From positions 4,342,896-4,406,895 of the forward strand of contig OY282377.1 of the NCBI GenBank assembly GCA_958295785.1: a stretch of DNA of 64,000 nucleotides, read 5' to 3'. The position numbers and the translations under genes were made by a program. The stretch is from an uncultured Latescibacterota bacterium. Its GTDB lineage: Bacteria; Latescibacterota; UBA2968. Under the pieces are notes generated by a model that was given only the letters and a program-made list of their open reading frames with translations, did not search any database and was not told the DNA's origin. How positions within the stretch are numbered: position 1 is the stretch's first letter; the number at the start of each line of letters is the position of its first letter. Shown in pieces: positions 11,317 through 60,649 of the stretch.

Positions 11317-11446
11317 TATGTAGGGGCGATGCCCCTGTGCTCGCCCGCAGTGTGTAGGGGCGATGCCCCCGTGCTCGCCCAAAGATACAAGACAGACAGG
11401 CACAGGGGCCTGTATTTCTGCGGACAGGCACAGGGGCCTGTCCCTA
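11317..11446. repeat. Cluster of four GTAGGGGCG...GCCCC palindromic units
   Basis: Two units read gtaggggcgatgcccc(c/t)gtgctcgccc and two read ggcacaggggcctgt in shortened or variant form. They lie between the permease stop and the second ATPase start. The last unit abuts the permease stop codon. Units are about 27-33 bases with short irregular spacing. Confidence 0.85.
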
Positions 11447-19958: not shown

Positions 19959-19995
19959 AAGCTGTCAGTTTAGCCAGAAAAAAACACGAGCGGTA

Positions 19996-56700: not shown

Positions 56701-58645
<1,945 letters not shown>

Positions 58646-58822: not shown

Positions 58823-59347
58823 CTACTCGGCATTGTAAAGGGCTTGGAAAGCCAGCACGAGCTCGCGCAGGGCTTTGGCATTGGCCGGGTCTGTGGTCTG
58901 CTTGCACTTCATGGCCGTGCGAATGATTTTGTGCAACGCGATCAACTTGTCCGTATAAGCTTTCATCGCCGCGGCGTCATCCTCTGTCGGCTCTGTGATC
59001 CGCTGCGCGAAAAAATATTGCGCCACGACATCGCGGATGTGGTCCGCATGGTGCTCTTTGTTGATCACCCACCGCACGATCTGATTGTCATTATTTGTCT
59101 TTTTCCCCGACAATTTGTCGATTTCATTCTTGGATTTTTCAATCAGTGAGGGGAGCGGATTGATACGCCGAGGGGAATCCGACAATTTGTTGATTTCGGT
59201 CATGGATTTTTCTATGGTGGTCACGTCTTCCAACAGGGCTGCAAACCGCCCTTCGTCGCCGTAGATCCCACACGGAATCTCGCAGTGTGCGCGGGCAAGT
59301 GTGGGATAGAGGAACAAACTCAGTGCCAGCAAAATACAATGTCTCAT
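58823..59347 (-). CDS. sodN: Exported nickel superoxide dismutase homolog with internal duplication
   Basis: 174 aa from the ATG at 59347, preceded by GAGGAGATCGAG. A signal peptide (MRHCILLALSLFLYPTLARA) would leave H21 as the mature N-terminus. The following H21-C22-E-I-P-C26-G-I-Y matches the Ni-SOD hook HCxxPCGxY, in which the free amine, His1, Cys2 and Cys6 bind nickel. The C-terminal half (NKEHHADHIRDVVAQYFFAQRI) matches the helical bundle, with its HHAD helix. A segment of about 23 residues occurs twice: TIEKSMTEINKLSDSP and LIEKSKNEIDKLSGKK. A Sec-exported form needs no separate N-terminal protease for hook exposure. Dismutation of superoxide in the periplasm is the likely role. Confidence 0.88.
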   Translation of the reverse strand: MRHCILLALSLFLYPTLARAHCEIPCGIYGDEGRFAALLEDVTTIEKSMTEINKLSDSPRRINPLPSLIEKSKNEIDKLSGKKTNNDNQIVRWVINKEHHADHIRDVVAQYFFAQRITEPTEDDAAAMKAYTDKLIALHKIIRTAMKCKQTTDPANAKALRELVLAFQALYNAE

Positions 59348-59416: not shown

Positions 59417-60547
59417 TCAAAACCCCCACATTCGCAATGCCGGATCGGTTTTGATGTCCAACCCCATTGCGCGCAGCGGATCGCGGCTATCCAATAAAAA
59501 TCGCTTGACGGCCTCAATGCCCACGACAAAGCCCAAACCGGGTTCGACCACCTCGCGCTCTGCAATCGATATTTGATCGAGCAACTCGGGCGAAAGCACT
59601 GTGCCCTCGTTCAACCTGCGGTCGGGCACCAACAGCCGAAACGTTTCTGTTGTGGCGCCGCGGCAAAGGCCCACGAGTTCCAAATTGGGCAAGCCATCGC
59701 GCACGGCAACCACGGGTCCGCCGCTGTAGCCCGCACGAATGGCAGCATCGACAAAAAATTGATCTTTGTGATAATCGTCCAAACTCACGGTGCCCGCGGT
59801 GAGGCGCGTTTTGCTTTTTGGATGGCCTATGATATAGACAAAATTGCCCCATTGCAGGTCCGAGGTCTTGCCGATGGGCAACAAAAAGGGCGCGGGCTTT
59901 CGCATGACATGGGGAATATCGAGTTTGAGCAAGGCGAGGTCTGCTTTCCGGTCAAGGCGAATAATTTTTGTATGGATGCTTTCACCATCGCGGTTGACCA
60001 CCTGCAATGCGGTGCTGGTCTTAATGGAAATCCGTTCGAGCACGCTCGTTTCCAGGCCCCGCGAATCCCGCATAAAATACCGAATGGTATCGGGGGCTGT
60101 CACCAGATGGGCAACCGTCAGCGCGATAGCTATGTCGTATTGATTGGCTGCCGATTGCCGCGCGATCACGAGGGCGGTGCCCACTTTGGAATACGAATCG
60201 ACGGTCTCGCGGATGCCTTCTCGCTGCAGCCGATAGCCCGTTGGGCTGTTGTCATCTGCGAGCGGCAAGCGCAGCAACAAGCCCCTGTCATCTCTCAAAT
60301 TATGCGTGTAAAACACATTGGCGTATTGGGGCGTCCACACGACTTTTACAGTGGAAACAAATAGGGTTTCAAACCCAGACTGGGCATTGCCCCGCCCAAC
60401 GGGCACGCGATAATCGTATTCGCTATCGGGCGCCAGAACGTATTGCGCGGCGCACCCCACAAAGCATATCAGAGCCATTGCGACCCGCCATGTGAAGATC
60501 CAGAGCTTTTGCATTGCTTTTTCGCGCCCTTTCCGTATATTCCCCAT
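59417..60547 (-). CDS. Trypsin-like serine protease lipoprotein (S1 family)
   Basis: 376 aa from the ATG at 60547, with GGAG upstream; a start at 60514 is the shorter alternative. A basic tail and hydrophobic helix lead to a lipobox ending FVGC32, suggesting an acylated lipoprotein. The trypsin-fold triad is readable: H147 (LTVAHLV), D203 (KADLALLKL) and S275 (AGYSGGPVV). No PDZ domain follows. It lies upstream of the Ni-SOD gene on the same strand, 69 bases apart, and may act in envelope protein quality control. Confidence 0.85.
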   Translation of the reverse strand: MGNIRKGREKAMQKLWIFTWRVAMALICFVGCAAQYVLAPDSEYDYRVPVGRGNAQSGFETLFVSTVKVVWTPQYANVFYTHNLRDDRGLLLRLPLADDNSPTGYRLQREGIRETVDSYSKVGTALVIARQSAANQYDIAIALTVAHLVTAPDTIRYFMRDSRGLETSVLERISIKTSTALQVVNRDGESIHTKIIRLDRKADLALLKLDIPHVMRKPAPFLLPIGKTSDLQWGNFVYIIGHPKSKTRLTAGTVSLDDYHKDQFFVDAAIRAGYSGGPVVAVRDGLPNLELVGLCRGATTETFRLLVPDRRLNEGTVLSPELLDQISIAEREVVEPGLGFVVGIEAVKRFLLDSRDPLRAMGLDIKTDPALRMWGF

Positions 60548-60649
60548 GCTGTTATCTCCCACAGCATTATAACAATTCGGCAATTGAAGTCAAGCACTGC
60601 CGCCCTATCTCCCGCCTCTTTGTCATCCCTCATCCACTCCGTGAACAAT

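Follow-up and report, generated by a model that had tools for sequence, protein, structure and literature searches.

Introduction

Streptomyces nickel superoxide dismutases (Ni-SODs) carry a protease-cleaved propeptide at the position where the enzyme described here, encoded by sodN of a Latescibacterota bacterium, has a signal peptide. The two share an N-terminal HCxxPC nickel hook and a four-helix bundle (Streptomyces structures 1T6U, 1Q0D, 3G50 and 4NCQ), but their sequence similarity is very low (phmmer E 0.32) and an additional 24 residues separate helices 1 and 2 in the sodN product. Much closer to sodN is a clade of exported Ni-SODs from Latescibacterota, Gemmatimonadota, Desulfobacterota, Planctomycetota and others (loci L032 to L111), which has the same arrangement of signal and hook and is 48-81% identical to sodN over the mature protein (79 of the 80 loci), whereas the insertion is found in 0 of the 80. 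Ni-SODs with a signal peptide are already treated as known in PMC12537917, and since the signal-hook arrangement is ordinary in this clade, export of a Ni-SOD is not in itself new here. Within this known clade of exported enzymes, the sodN product is a new member, set apart from the others by its insertion.

During normal CRISPR adaptation, the leader-proximal repeat is duplicated by gap filling. To our knowledge, what is known of off-target spacer integration comes largely from integrase assays and from overexpression in E. coli. In 2018, Nivala, Shipman and Church reportedly described a small number of natural examples, from Yersinia pestis and Sulfolobus islandicus. Non-canonical integration of spacers outside arrays (Nivala et al. 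2018) is cited in PMC11788318 and PMC9456107, and off-target sites are described in PMC6895254 as resembling the leader-repeat junction with guanine preferred, which is a preference and no strict requirement. The arrangement named 'neo-CRISPR' (Nivala, Shipman and Church 2018) is reportedly spacer-sized DNA outside an array, lying between repeat-length copies of the target, and this is the same anatomy as that reported below. In contrast to 'neo-CRISPR', the present cases lie in natural chromosomal genes, fall into three size classes that match three systems and include self-derived inserts, and two of the sites (sodN and one other) are in frame in protein genes. Within open-licence PMC text, we found no report on in-frame or coding ectopic spacers.

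Results and discussion

sodN encodes an exported Ni-SOD

The window, by which we mean the whole stretch of 64,000 nucleotides that was analysed, contains sodN on the minus strand together with the following features.

56701 to 58323, minus strand: groEL, a neighbour of sodN (from the list of open reading frames)
58355 to 58645, minus strand: groES, neighbour of sodN, conserved in 10 of the 10 loci L032 to L041
58823 to 59347, minus strand: sodN, exported Ni-containing superoxide dismutase, 174 aa plus stop (PF09055 profile and Foldseek)
59107 to 59143, minus strand: repeat copy 2 (IEKSKNEIDKLS plus 1 nt), an additional helix in the model; one side of what we propose to be a target-site duplication
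59144 to 59178, minus strand: non-repeated insert of 35 nt, a proposed ectopic CRISPR spacer, coding for most of DSPRRINPLPSL
59179 to 59215, minus strand: repeat copy 1 (IEKSMTEINKLS plus 1 nt), end of helix 1; other side of the proposed target-site duplication
59261 to 59287, minus strand: nickel hook HCEIPCGIY at the mature N-terminus, with H1, C2, P5, C6 and G7 invariant
59288 to 59347, minus strand: Sec-type signal peptide MRHCILLALSLFLYPTLARA, recognised by eye from its hydrophobic core and ARA before the cut
59417 to 60583, minus strand: gene for a trypsin-like protein (named by eye) upstream of sodN, present in 8 of the 10 loci L032 to L041

The sodN product matched the Pfam profile Sod_Ni (PF09055) with 99.7 bits against a cut-off of 25, and it is the only PF09055 match in its own genome, which is a single contig of 5.66 Mb. 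Its signal-like segment of 20 residues ends in ARA and is followed directly by HCEIPCGIY. A preliminary description of the locus had proposed an exported Ni-SOD with this hook at the predicted mature N-terminus, and the homologues bear this out: a signal-like stretch precedes the hook in 80 of 80, a hydrophobic core lies before it in 79 of 80, and the hook residues H1, C2, P5, C6 and G7 do not vary across the 80 aligned sequences. Just before the hook, 78 of the 80 have A, S or G at -1, and we saw no sign of cleavage elsewhere, a pattern consistent with the proposed cleavage immediately before the hook, as far as sequence can indicate it.

Against the NCBIfam sodN equivalog TIGR02753, the product scored 29.5 bits, under the curated cut-off of 90. 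Insertion-free exported relatives missed this cut-off too, scoring 35.5-44 bits in 4 of 4 tried, and the exported clade as sampled therefore lies outside the equivalog. Across the exported Ni-SODs scored (sodN, L032, L038, L052 and L090), TIGR02753 gave 24.9-44 bits against the required 90, with the hook intact.

A duplicated target encloses unrelated DNA in sodN

The insertion in sodN measures 72 nt, or 24 residues, and consists of a direct 37-nt repeat around 35 nt of other DNA. It had been described as a 23-residue tandem duplication on account of two similar protein motifs. This motif pair is real, 9 of its 12 residues being identical, but its spacing is 24 residues or 72 nt and not 23 residues. 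The accompanying claim of a repeat at the DNA level also held, with 59107-59143 and 59179-59215 identical at 32 of 37 positions. The tandem duplication itself did not, since the repeat accounts for only about 37 of the 72 nt, the remaining 35 nt (59144-59178) are similar to neither flank, and no array in sodN was reported by Tandem Repeats Finder.

Judged by shuffling, the self-match exceeds chance: none of 5000 permutations of the mature protein equalled it, nor did any of 500 codon shuffles. When synonymous codons were reshuffled with the protein held fixed, a repeat identity of 31/36 was reached in 12 of 20000 trials, so that the sodN DNA itself is duplicated and the match goes beyond a likeness of helix sequences; among the nine identical residues in the repeat, eight use identical codons. 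Because the copies have diverged to 32/37, their boundaries are uncertain by 1-2 nt. The sodN pair escaped the stricter of our two pair scripts. The looser one detected it and gave copies of 34 nt and a gap of 38 nt, because extension in this script ends earlier than in the repeat finder.

The insertion is species-specific. Its presence in most homologues, which the preliminary description had named as an outcome that would refute its reading, was not seen: it is absent from all 80 of them and from 10 of the 10 other species of the genus. In these ten sister genomes, matches to the sodN protein stop at residues 57-58 and restart at 69-74, and a DNA alignment with six sisters has a single clean gap at the insertion. 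Across the phylum, a Ni-SOD is present in 39 of 64 genomes, and the other 38 genes span 387-402 nt as against 465 here. Likewise, the conserved arginine of helix 2 is mature residue 72 in sodN and lies at 47-51 in 80 of 80 homologues. The anatomy is that of a duplicated target, unrelated DNA and the duplicated target again.

Both sodN copies carry TCC at a place where the seven sisters compared carry TCG. Divergence between the copies amounts to 5 of 37 sites, and that between sodN and the sister genes to 22-24%. Given the shared TCC and these divergences, the insertion appears to postdate the sister split without being recent, and its age may be put, very roughly, at about half the time since that split. 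The rest of sodN is under purifying selection when compared with seven sisters (dN 0.12-0.13, dS 1.28-1.70).

The insertion has the dimensions of a resident CRISPR array

The genome contains three CRISPR-Cas systems, namely III-A (37-nt repeat, period of about 76), I-B (36-nt repeat, period of about 72) and I-E (28-29-nt repeat, period 61). Three full Cas1 genes were recognised with NCBIfam, one with the III-A genes at about 28.7 kb, one with I-B at about 2.225 Mb and Cas1e with I-E at about 4.096 Mb. A further long array with a III-A type repeat lies in inverted orientation near 3.99 Mb (L235:2076-13566), with a weak match to a Cas1 fragment at 3998344.

Array B is a large CRISPR array, and the stretch of it that was read has 57 exact copies of a 36-nt repeat. 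The 54 spacers counted measure 34-39 nt (35-37 nt in 49 of them), and the modal period is 72. The sodN insert, with its 35 nt, falls within this range of spacer lengths, and the duplicated sodN target of 37 nt compares with the 36-nt repeat of the array. In sequence, the target resembles the long CRISPR repeats no better than by chance (best 14/37 to repeat A and 12/36 to repeat B), and its ends are not guanine, unlike the Cas1 preference given in PMC6895254.

When the own genome was searched with the 161 nt around the insert, a single other notable match was obtained, at 2242099-2242121. It is partial (E 0.0027) and pairs 22 of 23 bases with sodN 59144-59166, beginning where the insert begins. 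This position is the edge of array B, which reads ...CAGTGAGGGGAGCGGATTGA followed by AAC; in it, GGATTGAAAC represents the final part of the CRISPR repeat. An exact match of 20 bases between sodN and the array edge stops where the CRISPR repeat sequence begins. From these sequences, either the sodN prespacer could have come from the edge of array B, or the edge and the insert could both stem from one element that also recombined with the array at GGATTGA; the match may also be due to chance. Beyond this partial match of 22/23, the genome query returned no full-length source of the insert. Its exact 24-mers had no match in viral contigs, and phage records gave only 17-nt chance matches. At the end of array B (L137:9040-9122), a dispersed element that occurs in at least 39 other places adjoins a hybrid unit, of which the 3' end is CRISPR repeat and the 5' part a hairpin-like sequence.

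Isolated repeat pairs with array periods recur on the chromosome

A census of isolated repeat pairs (gap 15-60 nt) covered 2.114 Mb or 37% of the chromosome, made up of the window and 103 stretches (L168 and L235 overlap by 10 kb, which is counted twice within the 2.114 Mb). It yielded 26 pairs, eight of which, sodN included, have the period of a resident array. This period is 61 nt in four (L167:14267, L176:7750, L189:3727 and L289:18945) and 72-76 nt in the other four (72 in L219:7972 and sodN, 73 in L169:13900, 76 in L156:5304). None of the remaining 18 pairs has a period of 61 or 71-77. The copies are identical in six of the eight array-like pairs and decayed in sodN (32/37) and L289 (26/29). 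One near miss, L217:8113, has a period of 69 (34-nt copies and a gap of 35 nt); it fits every array poorly and indicates that some background of such pairs exists. In 340 kb of the sister G008, 0 of 5 pairs had an array period, a number too small to serve as a control.

The REP-like motif GTAGGGGCGATGCCCCCGTGCTCGCCC is abundant in this genome (window positions 11319, 13950 and 19993, and many stretches) and often paired. It occurs in 8 of the 18 pairs without an array period, seven found by the script mask and one by eye. REP-like elements coincide with L189, one of the period-61 candidates, and possibly with L176 and L289 as well. The pair at window position 19993 (period 74, 91% identity) was left uncounted, as it is itself the REP-like motif, another copy of which fills part of the gap.

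Of the eight array-like pairs, three (sodN, L219 and L156) were compared for empty sites, and an empty site was established for each of them. At L156:5304-5416, a transposase gene, which we take to be of the IS630-like family, contains 39 nt of other DNA between the two copies of a 37-nt duplication, and the intact copy at L137:3283-3993 lacks exactly these 76 nt, with a clean gap. At L219:7972-8081 (G000:C1, about 3.208 Mb), a 36-nt duplication and 36 nt of copied DNA add 72 nt in frame to a 1074-aa reading frame, by its appearance presumably a sacsin/HSP90-type ATPase, and 2 of 2 close sister orthologues are without the 72 nt. The L167 site lies at the end of a gene that we take to be HicB-like.

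The sources of the inserts were sought with seven of them joined in one genome query, L289 being left out, and full-length chromosomal copies were found for three of the eight. The L219 insert was copied from 1871539 (34/34, or 36 exact bases with 2 flanking ones), that of L169 from 2487795 (35/36) and that of L176 from 1796130 (33/33). At the L176 source, AA stands directly before the copied segment, the first base of which is G, and we take this AAG at 1796130 to be the type I-E PAM. The same query gave no other genomic copies of the L156, L167 and L189 inserts, and exact 20-mers of the L189, L167, L156 and L289 inserts had no viral match, exact matching being a weak test.

Resemblance of the targets to the CRISPR repeats was graded. 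The L219 target agrees with repeat B in register at 20 of 36 positions (single-k-mer P 8e-5), and weaker likeness was seen for L176 (15/28, P 0.0014), L189 (14/28, P 0.0048) and L156 (16/36, P 0.009), where each P value holds for one k-mer and about 20 registers were tried per site. For L167 and L169, as for sodN, the resemblance is not above chance. Collectively, this chromosome has three adaptation modules and, besides sodN, other isolated loci of the same geometry.

Origin of the sodN insertion

We consider it likely that the 72-nt insertion in sodN arose by off-target integration of a CRISPR spacer. A Cas1-Cas2 integrase, the probable maker, would have joined a prespacer of about 35-36 nt to both ends of a sodN stretch of about 36-37 nt, and gap filling would then have duplicated that stretch. 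The integrase of the type I-B system, with its 36-nt repeats and spacers of about 36 nt, would fit best, and we infer that I-B was the system behind the event. As 36 + 36 = 72 is divisible by three and the insert has no stop, the product would have gained 24 residues in frame, which would have been tolerated since. Because the target is unlike a leader-repeat junction, we say that sodN has the build of a misplaced spacer and do not call it proven; the genome-wide pattern is surer than this single old event.

Alternatively, replication slippage or template switching could have copied about 37 nt of sodN and added about 35 nt of unrelated filler, with no CRISPR enzyme involved. The dissimilarity of the sodN target to the CRISPR repeat, an insert without a full-length source and the 18 of 26 isolated pairs in the genome that fit no array would all suit such a process, and we give it a minor share of the probability. 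Against it, sodN shares its geometry with the local type I-B array, and such geometry recurs at other loci, among them ones for which an empty site is proven and ones whose insert is a copy, whereas 0 of the 18 other pairs have an array period. Far less probable is a 72-nt tandem duplication of which the second half has diverged beyond recognition. Its period of 72 would be a multiple of three and its repeated half is helix sequence under selection, but eight of nine identical residues keep their codons while the intervening 35 nt or so are unlike either flank, so that one half would have to be frozen and the other saturated. Moreover, the tandem-repeat finder reports nothing, and no full 72-nt duplication can be recognised among the ten sister species. 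The richness of the genome in the REP-like motif brings to mind a small dispersed element, palindromic or REP-like, that inserted into the sodN frame. This origin is, if anything, a shade harder to credit than a tandem duplication: the 36-nt insert is single-copy in the genome even with up to 3 mismatches allowed, for which reason we rejected it, and the 161 nt around the insert have no other strong genomic match.

With off-target spacer integration as the preferred reading, one natural chromosome appears to hold many traces of such events at single-base resolution. If this is true, the rate, target choice, prespacer source and fate of misdirected adaptation can be read from ordinary genomes, and the CRISPR integrase is a generator of in-frame protein insertions. 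The anatomy to be scanned for in any genome is an isolated repeat of array length around an insert of spacer length, with the site empty in relatives. We lean, though only slightly, towards the broader proposition that CRISPR adaptation is a recurrent source of protein sequence, in which systems whose repeat and spacer add up to 72 nt would contribute 24 in-frame codons wherever Cas1-Cas2 misfires. The events seen here would then come from three systems (8 candidates in 37% of the chromosome), several of them fed by self-DNA, and the one in sodN would have persisted for about half the time since the sister split, adding a helix.

Predicted consequences for the protein

The model of the sodN product (m9836031e3fb1, pLDDT 84.7, 80-row alignment) is a four-helix bundle with helices at 11-36, 48-60, 67-96, 105-130 and 134-152. 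The best 13 PDB matches in a Foldseek search with this model are all Ni-SODs, with E-values of 0.03-0.5, none of which passes 0.001, and 1t6u_A aligns with a TM-score of 0.78 by target length. An insertion-free sister was modelled with helices at 11-36, 43-72, 81-106 and 110-128 (pLDDT 94.0, 66-row alignment), and the modelled four-helix core is the same with and without the insert.

A longer first helix or loop had been expected from the duplication; the model leaves helix 1 at its length and adds a low-confidence helix in the loop between helices 1 and 2. Helix 1 closes with copy 1, as in the sisters. The insert is modelled as a loop of low confidence (pLDDT under 50 at 41-47), and the extra helix, with block means of 48-68, is formed by copy 2. 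The enzyme probably still works; copy 1 would keep its place in closing helix 1, and the remainder of the insertion would form a flexible loop and a short helix at the end of the bundle opposite the Ni hook. Since helix 1 leads away from the hook to the opposite end of the bundle, the nickel site of the sodN product is expected to be unaffected by the insert.
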